A DNA stretch of 40,377 bases, taken from the IMG/VR virus record IMGVR_UViG_3300027759_000176, positions 1 through 40,377 of that record. One strand, 5' to 3'. Below the pieces are notes generated by a model, which was given only the letters and a program-made list of their open reading frames with translations, was not told the origin of the DNA and did not search any database. Position numbers and translations under genes: made by a program. Shown one piece after another: positions 2,857 through 39,470 of the stretch. Source of the stretch: a virus. How positions within the stretch are numbered: position 1 is the stretch's first letter; each line of letters begins with the position of its first letter.

Positions 2857-2895
2857 ATAGGGTATTAAGTACCCTATTGATTGCACTATTGCAAT
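2857..2895. promoter_or_regulatory. Two back-to-back inverted repeats upstream of the GP88 gene
   Basis: ATAGGGTA/TACCCTAT (2857-2864 and 2870-2877, 5-nt loop) is followed at once by ATTGCA/TGCAAT (2880-2885 and 2890-2895, 4-nt loop). They fill the only gap in this operon, 21 bp before the GP88 start. They could be operator half-sites or RNA hairpins controlling translation. The first arm shares TATAGGGTA with the candidate operator at 2421. Confidence 0.45.
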
Positions 2896-2916
2896 ATTTA
2901 GCATGAAAGTATTATT

Positions 2917-3564
2917 ATGATTCGCATTTCAGTTACATCAAAATTAGACGGTATCCGTAGTTGGTCATTACAGGCCATTGATACTTGCCCCGGTTCTATA
3001 TCGTCACCAGGTGTATTAGTTGATGCGTGTAAGGGATGCTATGCAACAACTGGCAACTATCGTTTTCCGAACGTGAAAGCTCCTAGATTAGAAAATGGTC
3101 AGGATTGGCAAAGACTTGACTGGGTTGACGATATGGTCAAGGAATTGGATTCGGACCGGTATTTTCGCTGGTTTGATTCGGGTGACGTTTACACTTTAGG
3201 CTTGGCGGAAAAAATTCTAGAAGTTATGCAACGTACCCCATGGGTAAAGCACTGGTTACCTACACGTATGCATAAATTCCCTAAATTCGCGTTAGTGTTT
3301 CGTGAAATGCAAAATTTGGAAAACGTACGCGTCAGATTTTCCAGTGATTCTATAAACGGTGAATATATCGCTGGGTTGCATGGATCTGTAATTGTGGCTG
3401 CAGCCGATACTTTGCCCGATGATCACGTCACACTATGCAAAGCCTACGAAAATGCGGGAAAGTGCAGTGGATGCCGTGCGTGCTACTCAAAAGACGTTGA
3501 TGTTATAGCGTACCCAGCACACGGTAAAACTATGCTGAAAATTATTCGTATCAATAAGGCTTGA
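2917..3564 (+). CDS. GP88-family protein, 215 aa (cysteine-rich)
   Basis: The protein matches the phage 'gene product 88' family as I remember it: an N-terminal SKLDG...SW segment, a CKGCYA motif (C38, C41) preceded by C24, a central FRWFDSGDV strand, and a C-terminal cluster C174, C183, C186, C189 followed by IAYPAHG. The Cys arrangement suggests a metal or iron-sulfur site, and the fold has been compared with radical-SAM-like proteins; the biochemical activity is not known to me. At 215 aa it looks full length. It sits in the short plus-strand block between a pair of inverted repeats and a 46-aa gene. Its base composition is more even than that of the HNH genes. Confidence 0.8.
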   Translation: MIRISVTSKLDGIRSWSLQAIDTCPGSISSPGVLVDACKGCYATTGNYRFPNVKAPRLENGQDWQRLDWVDDMVKELDSDRYFRWFDSGDVYTLGLAEKILEVMQRTPWVKHWLPTRMHKFPKFALVFREMQNLENVRVRFSSDSINGEYIAGLHGSVIVAAADTLPDDHVTLCKAYENAGKCSGCRACYSKDVDVIAYPAHGKTMLKIIRINKA

Positions 3565-3566
3565 TC

Positions 3567-3707
3567 ATGCAATATTGGACTGTACATATAAATAACAGGG
3601 ATGAGGTCGATGTATGGGCCGATTCGCCCGATAGTGCTATTGACTACATATACGAAACACGCGCCTATGATATTTGGGATATATGGTGCGACAGTGTGAA
3701 AGGATAA
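3567..3707 (+). CDS. Small acidic aromatic protein, 46 aa
   Basis: The 46-codon frame starts two bases after the GP88 stop and ends just before a strong terminator, so it is the last gene of the block. The product (MQYWTVHINNRDEVDVWADS...) is acidic, with five Trp and four Tyr. Small acidic early phage proteins of this kind sometimes act as inhibitors or DNA mimics, but no family is recognised and that is only a suggestion. Confidence 0.65.
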   Translation: MQYWTVHINNRDEVDVWADSPDSAIDYIYETRAYDIWDIWCDSVKG

Positions 3708-3709
3708 GG

Positions 3710-3731
3710 AAAGGGCTCAGGCCCTTTTTTT
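3710..3731 (+). terminator. Rho-independent terminator of the GP88 block
   Basis: Stem AAAGGGC (3710-3716), loop TCAG, stem GCCCTTT (3721-3727), with a run of seven T at 3725-3731. It lies directly after the 46-aa gene and before the repeat tract. Confidence 0.93.
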
Positions 3732-3920
3732 GTTTGGCTTAGGCTTTGCTTAGGCTTTTTTTGCTTGGCTACTGTAGACGGGTTTCAACCCGTTTATTGT
3801 GCTTTGCTTCGCGGGTTAACTGTAGGCTTGGCTTTGCTTGGCTTAGGCTTTGCTTTGCTGGGTGACTGTAGGCGCTTTGCTTTGCTCTAGCGTAGGCGCT
3901 TAGGCTTTGCAAGGCTTGAA
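3732..3920. repeat. GCTTTGCTT / ACTGTAGGC iterated repeat tract
   Basis: Non-coding low-complexity DNA follows the terminator. GCTTTGCTT occurs perfectly five times (3743, 3801, 3831, 3847, 3874), often extended to GGCTT or TTAGGC. ACTGTAG occurs at 3771, 3819 and 3865, about 47 bp apart, with a degraded fourth near 3890. A hairpin ACGGGT-TTCA-ACCCGT sits at 3778-3793. No frame is open across it. The tract lies between converging transcription units. Iterons of a replication origin or a recombination-prone spacer are possible readings. Confidence 0.7.
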
Positions 3921-5720: not shown

Positions 5721-6181
5721 ACAAAGTCCAATTCTGGTGCTTTACTTGTATATCTGTCTAGCGTCATTTTGATGTACTTGGAATAATCAGATCGGCTAAT
5801 ACTTTGTCTTTGCAACTGATGGTACTCAAGCATATTCCTGATGGCTGTAATTCCAACACCTGTAAAACCCATTACTCTTGATTTCTCATACCTTTGGGCA
5901 GCACTCTTTAGTTCTTTTTCAGCAGTTGCACAATCTGGCAATGCTTCTTGTCCAATACCATTACGGGCCATTGTTTCGCAGATGTTTAGGCTACCAGTTA
6001 AGTCCCACCATTCTTGGACTCCACCTTTGCCATTCATCACGGCTTCTAAACTGGTTAAATCTCGCATGGTAAGCATATCCAAAGACTTTTGATCTACTAC
6101 CCTTGCACCAGAGATAGCGTGTCCAACTGCATCAAAACCAGTTGTTGCATAGTGCTGACGTTTACATTTTTTACGACTCAT
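5717..6181 (-). CDS. Early protein, 154 aa, unknown function
   Basis: I place the start at ATG 6181 (MSRKKCKRQHYATTGFDAVG) because AGGA lies 7 nt upstream; an upstream in-frame start at 6235 would add 18 residues overlapping the previous gene. The product has a basic N-terminus and a helical middle (KSLDMLTMRDLTSLEAVMNG, TAEKELKSAAQRYEKSRVMG). It is recognisable as a phage hypothetical protein but I know no function for it. It couples to the 109-aa gene downstream. Confidence 0.7.
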   Translation of the reverse strand: MSRKKCKRQHYATTGFDAVGHAISGARVVDQKSLDMLTMRDLTSLEAVMNGKGGVQEWWDLTGSLNICETMARNGIGQEALPDCATAEKELKSAAQRYEKSRVMGFTGVGITAIRNMLEYHQLQRQSISRSDYSKYIKMTLDRYTSKAPELDFV

Positions 6182-13406: not shown

Positions 13407-13598
13407 ATGAAGAATTTTATTCAAGAGTTCAAAGAAGAACACGCAAACATCGAATATTGCTGCTATTGCATTGAAGAGCGCGGTAACAAAATGTCTTGCT
13501 GTTCAGAAAACCATTTCGTGCCATTCAGTGACTTGGATGACTCTACGCAAATGGAAATTATCAATGAAGAATACGACACTTACTTTGGAATGAAATGA
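13407..13598 (+). CDS. Small acidic cysteine-rich protein, 63 aa
   Basis: The protein has a cluster YCCYCIEERGNKMSCCSENH (C18, C19, C21, C31, C32, H36) that could bind zinc, flanked by acidic helices. I know this as a recurrent small phage protein but no function is assigned. It precedes the structured RNA. Confidence 0.72.
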   Translation: MKNFIQEFKEEHANIEYCCYCIEERGNKMSCCSENHFVPFSDLDDSTQMEIINEEYDTYFGMK

Positions 13599-13612
13599 TG
13601 TATGATTCGTAT

Positions 13613-13715
13613 ATCGCTGGGGAGCGATTATCTAGTAAGCCTATTAAGGCAGTCTGCACCGTATTAGCGGTGTCTCCCCACATCGAAAGATGAGACTGTC
13701 TTAGTAGGCTTTTTT
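13613..13715 (+). ncRNA. Candidate structured RNA with pseudoknot and terminator-like end
   Basis: A 5' hairpin ATCGCT-GGGG-AGCGAT (13613-13628) is followed by an 18-bp stem with no mismatch and two G-U pairs (13638-13655 with 13693-13710). The long stem encloses two hairpins: CACCG/CGGTG (13657-13672, 6-nt loop) and CATC-GAAA-GATG (13681-13692, GNRA tetraloop). The 7 nt TGGGGAG around the first loop (13618-13624) are a perfect complement of CTCCCCA between the inner hairpins (13674-13680), giving a pseudoknot. Five T follow the stem. It could be a small RNA, an attenuator, or a regulator of the HNH/annealing genes downstream. Confidence 0.72.
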
Positions 13716-13732
13716 ATGTTTGGAAATATCTT

Positions 13733-14185
13733 ATGAAAGCTTGCATCTTATGGACTAAAGCAACTGCTGGTAATGGATATGGCGTAACTTCATATCTTGG
13801 TAAACAAATTTATGCACATAGATTAGCGGCAATAAAAAAGTTTGGATCAATTCCAGAAAAAATGGTTGTTGCTCATACTTGTGATACTCCTTCATGTGTA
13901 AATCCTGACCATCTTTTTATTTGTACACAAAAAGAAAATTTGGCTGATATGTGGAAAAAAGGAAGAGGTGCTAGTGGTGATTTGCATGGACTAAGAAAAC
14001 ATCCTGAATGCTCTGCAAAAGGAGAAAAAGTTGATAGCAGCAAATTAACATCAGAACAAGTTATACAAATTAGAGAAATGTATATTCCAAAAAAAGTACC
14101 TTTGACTTTTATAGCAAAAAAGTTTGGGATTGCTTTTCAAACGGTTAGTAAGATAGTAAACAGAAAATTGTGGAAACACATTTAA
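13733..14185 (+). CDS. HNH homing-type endonuclease with C-terminal HTH, 150 aa
   Basis: The core reads YAHRLAAIKKFG, then VVAHTCDTPSCVNPDHLFICTQKENLADMW, the HNH_3/zinc-HNH pattern of selfish phage nucleases, with two cysteines in the CDTPSCVNPDHL loop. The C-terminal segment SSKLTSEQVIQIREMYI...LTFIAKKFGIAFQTVSKIVNRKLWKHI is a helix-turn-helix DNA-binding module typical of these nucleases. It is AT-rich and lies between a structured RNA and the annealing protein, 11 bp from the latter's start. It is probably mobile and dispensable for the phage. Confidence 0.92.
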   Translation: MKACILWTKATAGNGYGVTSYLGKQIYAHRLAAIKKFGSIPEKMVVAHTCDTPSCVNPDHLFICTQKENLADMWKKGRGASGDLHGLRKHPECSAKGEKVDSSKLTSEQVIQIREMYIPKKVPLTFIAKKFGIAFQTVSKIVNRKLWKHI

Positions 14186-14196
14186 AAGGAATTGAA

Positions 14197-37028: not shown

Positions 37029-39470
37029 CTAAATTCGTTGTACTTTACCATCAACCGCTTCTGGTCTACGATAGATAAAAGTATTAGCTCGACTTACCAT
37101 TGATTCACCATGACCTTGAACTAATGCCAATATACCAATACGGGCTGAGTCAATATGGTCATCAGGGTCTGAAAACTTACCACCTTCATCAATAGCGTAG
37201 TTTCTAGCTTCATCCAAGAACGCATTACATGATTCATTAATCATTAATGTTTTACGTTCCATTCCTAGACGCATTATATTGATTCCGTAAGACTTATGGT
37301 TAGTTACCTTACCTTGGTCGTTCGCAGGATTAAGAATTGCACCTGGTATACAGTTTAAACCATAATTATCTTCAAATGTCTCGCGAATAGATTGTTCAGT
37401 CAATGTATATCGACCAGCCTGACCAGCATCATGCGGTAAAGCGATTGGAACACCTTTAGATTCCCTGTCCATCAGATAATGAACGTATTCATCTGGCACT
37501 TCACCTCGGGGAATAGTTACTTGACGATGTAAATAGATAATTTCAGCCACTGGATCACGGAAAAAGAAACTAATGACTGTTGGATCATTACGAATACCCA
37601 AGTCAAATGAAATCAGACGTTCCATCTTCTCGTTGTGCATTAAATCAAAGTCAATAGCTTTATAAGTAGGCCATTCCAGCATTGGAAACACAACACCTTT
37701 GCCAACTAGAGGAGTTCCATTCATTCGGCATTCCCTTTCCCAAGGCATAAAATCTCGTGATAGCTGTTCACGTTCTTTTTGTGAGAAAAACTCTTCATCC
37801 CATTCATTTTTGTATGGAACGTCATCCCAACCAACTCTGACATGGGTGTAGCCTTCAATCTTGTCCCAAAACTTACGCACAAGTCCTGACATACCTTTAA
37901 GAGGCGTAAAAGAACACATGACCTGACCATTACGCTGTGCTGTACGTACAACAAGCTCAGAAAAGATTTCATCTGGCGGTTGCTCATCAAGAACAACTAG
38001 GTCAAGCTCAAATCCCTGCAAATGTCGCACTTGTTGGGTGTAATTGGAGAAATACAGTTTTGATTTGCCACCTGAGATGTGCCAGACTTCAATAGCCAAC
38101 ACGTTCGCGCCATCCGTTCTGATTGATTTTGAATCAATGTCTTCGCGTGGGATGGAACCAGTGCCAAGTTTATAGGATTGCTTAATATCATCACAGCCTA
38201 ACAATTTACTTTGAAGCGTTTTAGCGACCTGTTCCCAAGATTCACCACTTGCCATCGCAATAATGGGAGTAGTCCAGACTTTACCCGTCCAACCTTTGGG
38301 ATAACGCCCTGTCAAATGATAAGCAGTCTCATAAGTAGAGGCGATTGTATTGTGGTGAACAATACCACAGCTAATGTAATTTTCAGTACCAGGTACAGTA
38401 AAGTCATATACATCATGGAAGCCAATAGGTTCATACGCTATAATCTTATTAGCATCATTACTAAAAGGATTTAACAATGAAGGCAATTCAATTTGATCTT
38501 GAGCAATTACGCGATCTTGTCGAAGTACAGCAATTAACTCAAGAACGTATTTCTGTAATACTTGGATGTAATCGGTCAACTCTTCAGAGGGCTTGTTATC
38601 GTTTTGGTCTAAATACTCAACGAACCGGGCCACGAGATGGCGAGTTGCATACAGGGTGGAAGGGGGGAAGAAATTTGCTTGGAGGATATTGGTATATATA
38701 TTTTCCAGATCATCCTTATTGCACCAAGAAAAAGAATGTAGCAGAGCATAGACTTGTGATGGAGCAATTTCTTGGTCGGTATTTATTGCGAAGCGAAGTT
38801 GTTCATCACAAAAACGGAGATTCTCAAGACAATCGTATAGAGAACCTTCAAGTTTTTGCTTCAAATTCAGATCACCTAAAGCATGAGTTGACTGGACAAA
38901 TTCCCAATTGGACGCCAGCAGGTTTGGAAGCGATGAAAGCAGGGACTCGCAAAAGACGTATTCAGCTCCAGACTGCAAAACGCGATGCCCAAGGGCGGCT
39001 TCTATCCATCGACCATTTGCCATCCATAGACGAACACATGGCTCCTGTGGCTTTTTAATAGGCTGTATGGCTGTTTTAATAACAACCTTTTTGCCGTCCC
39101 AAGAATTAACTTCAAAAGATTCACCCCGTGCATACATCTCACCATAAGTGATACGTTGACCATTGGGTAGATCTAAAAGTGTTGCTGCTGTACAACATTT
39201 TCCAGTACGGTTAGCCGCGATCATTCCACGGCGTGTATGAGTTGAACCTGTTTTAAAAAAATCAGTTTGATACTTAAATGGCCTAAACCATTTCAAAGTA
39301 TTGAACTGCATATCTTTGGAAACTACATCCCTTGCTGTTTTCATGGCTTTAAGCTGTTCAGGAGTCATCTCTTTGATGTACTTCTTGCCACCAGCAAGTT
39401 GAACAAGGTGCTTTAAGGCTCTATCCTTGTAAATAGGTTGGATGTAATCACTAGCTTCACTCTTCGCCAT
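37029..39470 (-). CDS. terL: Terminase large subunit with in-frame intein, 813 aa (530 after splicing)
   Basis: This is the packaging motor ATPase and nuclease. Without residues 92-374 the Walker A reads AANRTGKT, followed by IASTYETAYHLTGR; Walker B is LVVLDEQ (D495, E496), the coupling motif is CSFTPLKG, and the nuclease acids are D623 (ISFDLGIRND), D681 and D774 (DDHIDSARIG). The intein starts at C92 and ends with N374; splicing would join K91 to T375 and restore GKT. Unspliced protein cannot bind ATP, so splicing is needed for packaging. The middle of the intein is the antisense of a plus-strand HNH gene at 38477-39058. The start ATG overlaps the 62-aa gene by 14 bp. Confidence 0.96.
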   Translation of the reverse strand: MAKSEASDYIQPIYKDRALKHLVQLAGGKKYIKEMTPEQLKAMKTARDVVSKDMQFNTLKWFRPFKYQTDFFKTGSTHTRRGMIAANRTGKCCTAATLLDLPNGQRITYGEMYARGESFEVNSWDGKKVVIKTAIQPIKKPQEPCVRLWMANGRWIEAALGHRVLQSGAEYVFCESLLSSLPNLLASNWEFVQSTHALGDLNLKQKLEGSLYDCLENLRFCDEQLRFAINTDQEIAPSQVYALLHSFSWCNKDDLENIYTNILQANFFPPSTLYATRHLVARFVEYLDQNDNKPSEELTDYIQVLQKYVLELIAVLRQDRVIAQDQIELPSLLNPFSNDANKIIAYEPIGFHDVYDFTVPGTENYISCGIVHHNTIASTYETAYHLTGRYPKGWTGKVWTTPIIAMASGESWEQVAKTLQSKLLGCDDIKQSYKLGTGSIPREDIDSKSIRTDGANVLAIEVWHISGGKSKLYFSNYTQQVRHLQGFELDLVVLDEQPPDEIFSELVVRTAQRNGQVMCSFTPLKGMSGLVRKFWDKIEGYTHVRVGWDDVPYKNEWDEEFFSQKEREQLSRDFMPWERECRMNGTPLVGKGVVFPMLEWPTYKAIDFDLMHNEKMERLISFDLGIRNDPTVISFFFRDPVAEIIYLHRQVTIPRGEVPDEYVHYLMDRESKGVPIALPHDAGQAGRYTLTEQSIRETFEDNYGLNCIPGAILNPANDQGKVTNHKSYGINIMRLGMERKTLMINESCNAFLDEARNYAIDEGGKFSDPDDHIDSARIGILALVQGHGESMVSRANTFIYRRPEAVDGKVQRI
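38439..38444 (+). promoter_or_regulatory. TATAAT box upstream of the antisense HNH gene
   Basis: A perfect -10 hexamer TATAAT ends 32 nt before the HNH ATG on the plus strand. The best -35 at 17-bp spacing is TGGAAG, a weak match. AAAAGGA at 38463-38469 is the Shine-Dalgarno sequence, 7 nt before the ATG. Together these could give the nuclease expression independent of the late transcript, although TATAAT also arises by chance in AT-rich DNA. Confidence 0.4.
38477..39058 (+). CDS. HNH homing endonuclease encoded antisense inside the TerL intein, 193 aa
   Basis: The protein has an N-terminal helix-turn-helix (residues 8-45: QLRDLVEVQQLTQERISVIL then GCNRSTLQRACYRFGL), then a full HNH_3-type core: AEHRLVMEQFLGRYLLRSEVVHHKNGDSQDNRIENLQVF (H91, H110, H111, N119, N123), and a basic C-terminal part. 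It would cut intein-less alleles and drive homing. The gene lies entirely within the intein (39197-38349) on the other strand, with codon first positions facing each other. The final 25 codons lie opposite splicing block B. A good AAAAGGA precedes the ATG. Confidence 0.9.
   Translation: MKAIQFDLEQLRDLVEVQQLTQERISVILGCNRSTLQRACYRFGLNTQRTGPRDGELHTGWKGGRNLLGGYWYIYFPDHPYCTKKKNVAEHRLVMEQFLGRYLLRSEVVHHKNGDSQDNRIENLQVFASNSDHLKHELTGQIPNWTPAGLEAMKAGTRKRRIQLQTAKRDAQGRLLSIDHLPSIDEHMAPVAF

Follow-up and report, generated by a model that had tools for sequence, protein, structure and literature searches.

A tightly folded RNA of about 105 nt, encoded at positions 13613-13715 on the plus strand of the viral DNA analysed here (IMG/VR record IMGVR_UViG_3300027759_000176, positions 1 to 40,377, hereafter the window), belongs to a family of phage RNAs with at least 98 distinct relatives that share one common fold, made up of P1, P2 (18 bp), P3, P4 and two pseudoknots, PK1 and PK2. 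We consider it probable, with moderate confidence, that these RNAs act in cis as leaders, in which a putative promoter, a double-pseudoknot RNA and, in nearly all members, a terminator-like stem and U-run would together gate the next gene. The family, its fold with two covarying pseudoknots, the promoter-like -10 box, the U-run, a near-fixed spacing to the downstream start codon, the gene partners and the mobility of an RNA-nuclease cassette are all computed from the sequences. They add a class of structured RNA at a control point for the onset of phage DNA replication, and one that selfish nuclease genes appear to have taken over and carried along.

The window RNA and its family

The window RNA is preceded by a putative promoter of its own, the -10 hexamer TATGAT (13601-13606, plus strand), at a position shared with relatives. 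It opens with the P1 hairpin (13613-13628; stem 13613-13617/13624-13628, loop UGGGGA), assigned from folding and covariation. Covariation likewise delineates the P3 hairpin (13656-13673), the P4 hairpin (13681-13692), the J3/4 linker CUCCCCA (13674-13680) and the two strands of P2 (13638-13655 and 13693-13710), which is also marked by its constant length. PK1 joins its 5' strand in the P1 loop (13618-13623) to positions 13675-13680 of the linker, which constitutes its 3' strand and is anti-Shine-Dalgarno-like in type B members, while PK2 joins CUAGUA (13632-13637) to UAUUAG inside the P3 loop (13662-13667). An intrinsic-terminator-like U-run (13711-13715), read from the sequence and matched by T-runs in relatives, lies 3' of P2, and the T at 13710 is a sixth T that doubles as the last stem base of P2. 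The predicted folding energy of 13600-13720 is -49.3 kcal/mol (z = -5.83), a value equalled by 0 of 200 shuffled sequences. A preliminary description of this DNA had recognised the 18-bp stem, free of mismatches and with two G-U pairs, the inner hairpins, one of them capped by GAAA (13685-13688), the exact complementarity between TGGGGAG (13618-13624) and CTCCCCA (13674-13680), and the five T 3' of the stem, all of which are found in the sequence; absent from it were PK2, the -10 box and the fact that the RNA and the HNH ORF that follows form an insertion.

A covariance model built from the window sequence alone (R1) returned a single new match from 86 sources, in locus L018 (47.5 bits, E 1.1e-8), where loop UUGGCGG and linker CCGCCAA replace UGGGGAG and CUCCCCA, that is, a compensated pseudoknot. 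A pattern derived from these two sequences matched 109 stretches of a viral collection, with the upstream complement of the linker present in 68 of them and the remainder mostly due to chance, and R1 applied to 96 sources yielded 72 convincing members, two further rows (the reverse strand of the window and L107) being noise. A relaxed pattern gave at least 120 stretches, old and new, and the family counts are lower bounds. Among the matches listed, an exact linker complement together with at least 8 bp of P2 was present in 146 of 167 core matches, a count in which the window RNA and its relative in L001 are represented more than once. We class members by their linker as type A (CGCCA) or type B (TCCCC or CTCCA), the latter including the window.

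The alignment used below (A3) contains 98 distinct sequences out of 142 filtered matches, with incomplete ones left out. The filter, an exact upstream complement of the linker, favours PK1 and does not act on PK2; its bias is small, because the only matches with 8 bp or more of P2 that it removed were L156 and L163, cut at contig ends, and L260, with one G-U pair. Both patterns fix core letters, so that core positions which appear invariant are partly so by construction, and some of these letters are changed in the Burkholderia relatives. Records from different samples may also be near-copies of one phage. A second covariance model built from A3 (R2) scores members at 70-124 bits and noise at no more than 22.6 bits.

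Covariation of the fold

Across the 98 sequences of A3, the 45 pairs of P1-P4, PK1 and PK2 are paired in 96.7% of alignment cells, against 79.6% after shuffling, and 33 of the 45 show changes on both sides. The covariation score is 0.477, compared with 0.162 +/- 0.005 in shuffles (0 of 500 reached it) and at most 0.101 when the structure is slid along the alignment. PK2, for which no filter was applied, is paired in 93.7% of cells, with compensation at 7 of 7 pairs; PK1, which the filter favours, is paired in 100%, with three of its six pairs compensated and three invariant. Among the helices, P1 (99.6% of cells paired) has changed on both sides at four of five pairs, P2 is compensated at 13 of 18 pairs and is exactly 18 bp long in 98 of 98 sequences, and P3 and P4 are paired in 99.8% and 98.7% of cells, respectively. 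RNAalifold recovers P1-P4 from A3 unaided. Lengths are similarly constrained: the PK2 strand and J3/4 are each 7 nt in all 98 sequences, and variation is found in J1/2 before PK2 (0-7 nt), in P4 and, by one base, in the P3 loop. One P2 position, paired in the window, carries a 1x1 mismatch in 70 of 98 sequences (A-G in 65), and columns 55-73 hold G-U in 98 of 98. Relatives without compensatory changes had been named at the outset as the finding that would speak against the structure; P2 and PK1 covary strongly, and the structure stands. A structured RNA with a genuine pseudoknot is thus strongly supported by both the covariance-model matches and the covariation.

Transcription signals and downstream genes

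Of 97 upstream regions, 76 contain a -10 hexamer that differs from TATAAT by no more than one base, at a distance of 16-24 nt 5' of the P1 loop; in the four control windows the corresponding counts are 0, 4, 4 and 6 of 97. At the other end, a run of at least five T follows P2 in 94 of 98 relatives, and the stem with its immediate U-run is present in the window too. L257, L267 and L272 lack the full run, so that termination would not be universal, and L153 is rearranged after the RNA. On the reverse strand, a consistent promoter that might drive an antisense RNA was not found (no 15-nt bin holds more than 14 of 90).

We examined 146 matches for the next gene; 139 have a downstream ORF and seven run off the contig. 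Among the matches listed, 77 downstream ORFs form one linked cluster of replication initiators, all behind type A RNAs, and the other clusters comprise HNH proteins (33 and 6), GIY-YIG proteins (5) and a small protein (7), the rest being singletons or pairs. HMM checks, made on cluster representatives, identify RIKNW-type (phrog_26426, replication protein) and DUF1376-type initiators, with further initiators matching phrog_270, phrog_2509 and phrog_11233 in L194, L221 and L258, so that most members, those of type A, precede initiators of several unrelated families. Other partners identified in this way are HNH proteins in L236 and L018, a GIY-YIG protein in L225, a ParB-like protein in L240 and an HTH_39 protein in L272. 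The small protein, of about 60 aa, lies directly after the RNA in L280, L250, L100 and four more loci; its representative has no Pfam or PHROG match. The initiators, nucleases, ParB-like and HTH proteins have no metabolism in common. This makes a metabolite riboswitch, which was also considered, unlikely, as no metabolite, amino acid or metabolic theme unites the downstream genes. The earlier suggestions of a riboswitch-like attenuator or a phage small RNA both match the promoter-RNA-U-run anatomy.

A co-oriented start codon is located 29-38 nt past the conserved GAGAC in 136 of 139 cases, with a mode of 31; in L257, one of the three outliers, a GTG at +31 had been skipped by the script. This near-fixed spacing is partial evidence for cis action, since phage genomes are compact and can be expected to have short intergenic gaps anyway. 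Viewed from the initiators, a same-strand RNA is found at 47 of the best 80 RIKNW loci, one of them cut at a contig end, and in L345, L354, L369 and L375 it lies 340-660 nt upstream, leaving room for an inserted gene. Among the nearest 80 DUF1376 loci the RNA is present in only two, and the association is therefore patchy.

Insertion in the window and association with nucleases

In the window, the RNA is flanked by a 63-aa ORF (13407-13598) and a 150-aa HNH endonuclease gene (13733-14185, plus strand; HNH_3, 3.8e-13; phrog_59, 9.5e-29), which is followed by the gene for a Sak-type single-strand annealing protein. The HNH_3 domain scores 49.3 bits against a cut-off of 24.8, and the protein matches only HNH_3 and zf-His_Me_endon, with no RuvC-type match. 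Its start lies 36 nt downstream, compared with the family mode of 31. Directly after the U-run, the sequence reads as a six-codon ORF, MFGNIL (13716-13736, plus strand), whose stop overlaps the HNH start (ATGA), an arrangement that makes translational coupling possible.

Among 80 loci fetched via the annealing protein, blastn detected the RNA in L001 only, and L018 holds a distant copy elsewhere. L001 is identical to the window in 111 RNA columns, and its HNH and 63-aa ORF DNA are 93.6% and 85.4% identical, respectively. In L002 and L003, the 63-aa ORF directly abuts the annealing gene, without the RNA or HNH gene, which identifies the two as an insertion at a gene junction (13599-14196, plus strand, ends approximate) and as a presence/absence polymorphism at one site. 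The proposal that the RNA is a module of the HNH gene is supported for the type B clade, because type B RNAs move with nuclease genes and L002 and L003 lack the window RNA and HNH gene as a unit, but not for the family, whose commonest partner is a replication initiator. Elsewhere in the window, a large ORF on the minus strand (37029-39470) combines a weak, sub-cut-off Pfam match to intein splicing with a C-terminal match to the terminase large subunit, and perhaps encodes an intein-bearing terminase; a tRNA-Asn gene lies at 1688-1763, also on the minus strand.

Among the matches listed, a nuclease gene immediately follows the RNA at 45 loci (both HNH clusters and the GIY-YIG cluster, together with L198, which looks GIY-YIG-like on inspection by eye). 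Behind type A RNAs, all 15 testable loci have a replication initiator as the gene after the nuclease, and two more run off the contig; behind type B RNAs, that gene is an initiator at 2 of 28 loci and a different one at the other 26. In L018, the stop codon of the HNH gene overlaps the start of the initiator gene, placing the nuclease ORF exactly between leader and initiator. On our reading of these arrangements, nucleases would have invaded the RNA-initiator junction, and one RNA lineage would then have joined a mobile cassette of which the window holds an example. That the RNA was carried off by endonuclease genes, as in the window, suggests a portable expression switch taken over by genes for selfish DNA-cutting enzymes. 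Two loci, L142 and its near-copy L168, carry two divergent RNAs, one per type and each followed by a different HNH gene (L142: 2844-2962, minus strand, and 3618-3732, plus strand).

Type B members are further distinguished by a hairpin at the ribosome-binding site (RBS) that repeats the P1 loop motif, present in 12 of 20 CTGGGGAG members, in 8 of 9 CTTGGAGG members and in none of 109 CTTGGCGG members; it also occurs in L260, which the script placed in neither class and whose P1 loop differs by one base. Complementary runs of at least 6 between the J3/4 linker and the RBS are found in 12 of 17 B1 and 8 of 8 B2 members. The linker of many type B members could thus be an anti-Shine-Dalgarno sequence able to kiss either P1 or the RBS. 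Pairing between linker and RBS as a general rule was rejected for type A, where 1 of 67 members has such a run. The window itself has no RBS hairpin, and its linker-RBS run is only 3.

Proposed mechanism and alternative explanations

According to the leader model, transcripts would start at P1, and P1, P3 and P4 would be arranged at a three-way junction held in place by PK1, between the P1 loop and the J3/4 linker, and by PK2, between J1/2 and the P3 loop. P2 and the U-run, placed directly 5' of the RBS of a single gene, would stop most transcripts and release a stable RNA of about 105 nt, while a regulated fraction would read through, or be translated, to express the next gene. Gating would most likely occur at transcription, as the stem and U-run suggest, and perhaps also at translation, given the near-fixed start distance, the type B RBS hairpins and the members without a U-run. 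We infer termination itself, kissing interactions that set the outcome, a signal that acts on the element and a regulatory benefit. The original clients would have been replication initiators, with the element determining how much or when the phage replicates; homing endonuclease genes would then have inserted between RNA and initiator and taken over the leader, and a derived type B clade, the window included, would have become part of mobile RNA-nuclease cassettes. As a tentative extension, on balance unlikely, the released RNA and the leader might compete through the same loops and so form a phage copy-number timer, which would sense copy number or block the initiators of co-infecting relatives and which homing endonucleases would have stolen as a self-limiting expression module, its loop re-tuned to a Shine-Dalgarno mimic.

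Several observations count against the leader reading. The 5' strand of PK2 adjoins the base of P2 and the P3 loop lies at its top, which may make it hard for both to form at once; in the window, the HNH start is 36 nt away and has no RBS hairpin; and promoter and U-run would suit a free small RNA gene. A trans-acting phage small RNA, lying 5' of these genes by chance and binding another RNA or a host protein, has in its favour that its own -10 box and the U-run bound the RNA exactly and that the fold is stable and closed, and it could serve as an incompatibility or immunity factor between co-infecting phages. We nevertheless regard it as rather unlikely, in view of the near-constant distance to one co-oriented start codon, the retention of the RNA before start codons where the U-run has been lost (L257, L267) and its re-use in front of unrelated genes. 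The type A P1 loop UUGGCG with its CGCC partner, 5' of a replication initiator, recalls a repZ-like translational switch, in which PK1 would set ribosome access and a sense or antisense RNA would compete for the P1 loop: TTGGCG is named as the interaction hexanucleotide of the I-complex plasmid rep system (PMC7646527), and the type B linker complements the RBS hairpin. Yet a consistent reverse-strand promoter for an antisense RNA was not found, the partner strand of PK1 is at least about 50 nt 5' of the start rather than at the RBS, and the type A linker does not match its own RBS, which together leave this explanation distinctly improbable.

The remaining candidates fare worse. Although stem and U-run would suffice for an ornate intrinsic terminator that merely insulates the next gene, simple terminators need neither two covarying pseudoknots nor fixed lengths, and some members have no U-run, so that we give this very little credence. 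A role as guide or scaffold for the HNH enzyme, comparable to that of HEARO or omega RNA, is suggested by the position of the window RNA directly 5' of an HNH gene; most members precede replication initiators, however, and the window enzyme has 150 aa and no RuvC-type match, with no Rfam match for the RNA, and we find the idea scarcely credible. Hardly any weight attaches to a DNA element either, be it a hairpin at a replication origin or the target site for homing, even though the element adjoins replication genes, has nuclease genes right beside it and also folds as a DNA strand: the G-U pairs kept on one strand favour a plus-strand RNA, the promoter and U-run fit one strand, and type B copies lie away from initiators.

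Comparison with known regulatory RNAs

The closest working analogue of the proposed leader is that of the I-complex (IncI-alpha/IncB/IncK) plasmid repZ gene with its Inc/RNAI antisense RNA. Both lie 5' of a replication initiator (in the type A majority; the window RNA precedes an HNH gene), and both combine a 5' hairpin, a UUGGCG loop (type A; UGGGGA in the window) and a pseudoknot with a downstream stretch 5' of the RBS. Unlike the plasmid leader, with its antisense RNA, the phage family has no consistent reverse -10 box that we could find; it has a three-way junction, a second pseudoknot and usually its own U-run, and the type B loop is UGGGGA or UUGGAG. We therefore do not regard the phage RNA as a member of the I-complex leaders, and convergence is the sober reading.

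The c4 antisense RNA of phages P1 and P7 is co-transcribed with the gene under its control. A partial resemblance may lie in the complementarity of the linker to the RBS of the next gene in many type B members; type A RNAs and the window RNA have no such complementarity, and the c4 covariance model (RF01695) gives no match even at E values up to 10. Attenuators and riboswitches with intrinsic terminators are likewise structured leaders with a stem and U-run 5' of one gene, but in the phage RNA the pseudoknots engage loops lying to either side of the terminator stem. HEARO and omega RNAs have a partner protein with RuvC and HNH domains (IscB-like); the phage RNA matches no Rfam model of theirs. 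The window nuclease and its relatives are of the same kind as the free-standing phage homing endonucleases (HNH_3, AP2, GIY-YIG). What sets them apart is a conserved structured RNA that travels with them or lies just ahead of their genes; no description of such an RNA was found in the open-access literature searched.

Distribution and occurrence in cultured phages

Rfam 15, searched at gathering and relaxed thresholds, yielded only tRNAs and weak chance matches, those to the window RNA at the relaxed threshold reaching at most 20.9 bits, far below the gathering scores; neither Polynucleobacter-1 (RF01718) nor C4 (RF01695) matched. DNA similarity searches found no match among phages for the RNAs of the window, L095, L236 and L231, and none among plasmids for a type A query; an L267 query gave a 24-nt chance match only. 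In bacterial genome contigs, a pattern restricted to the usual type A forms, and so blind to type B and to the Burkholderia variant, gave 12 matches, none with the fold and none above 18.2 bits with R2, and R2 found no match in 398 genomes of one phylum, a scan run without a positive control. Copies in prophages are possible. We found no prior description of the RNA in the open-access literature, subscription journals and preprints being mostly outside the search, nor in the accessible parts of PMC2864571 and PMC10724649, and it is apparently previously undescribed.

The phage records MW202462 and MW202544 from Manatee Spring carry the RNA; in both, a 'hypothetical protein' is annotated antisense across it (MW202462.1, positions 817-1059 of locus L297; MW202544.1, positions 5900-6142 of locus L298) and is probably not a gene. 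The Burkholderia phages CSP3, DC1, BcepIL02 and BcepMigl also carry it (70-76 bits with R2), in an unannotated gap 5' of a small gene that heads an operon with the initiator and a DnaC-like loader, so that the class has gone unannotated even in named cultured phages. The RNA is not mentioned in the parts of the CSP3 paper (PMC10269572) and JC1 paper (PMC9144972) accessible to us, the latter of which describes the small first gene as HTH-type. In these phages, core pairs that are constant in A3 are altered, with GUCU/AGAC becoming CCGU/ACGG, and PK2 is made of new pairs, such as ACCAGUG with CACUGGU in BcepMigl; in BcepIL02 only about 4 bp of PK2 are visible. Cultured carriers and a covariance model make the function of the RNA directly testable.

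In CSP3, the small first gene and the initiator are separated by a gene labelled 'helicase-like' (positions 3294-3680 of locus L459), whose GIY-YIG homology is noted in the CSP3 paper (PMC10269572); BcepMigl has an HNH gene at the equivalent position (2863-3306 of locus L461). The helicase label may hide a homing endonuclease. An operator-like inverted repeat, CCACGGTGATTCGAACCGTGG, lies 5' of the RNA in BcepIL02 (2490-2510 of locus L460) and BcepMigl (2452-2472 of locus L461).
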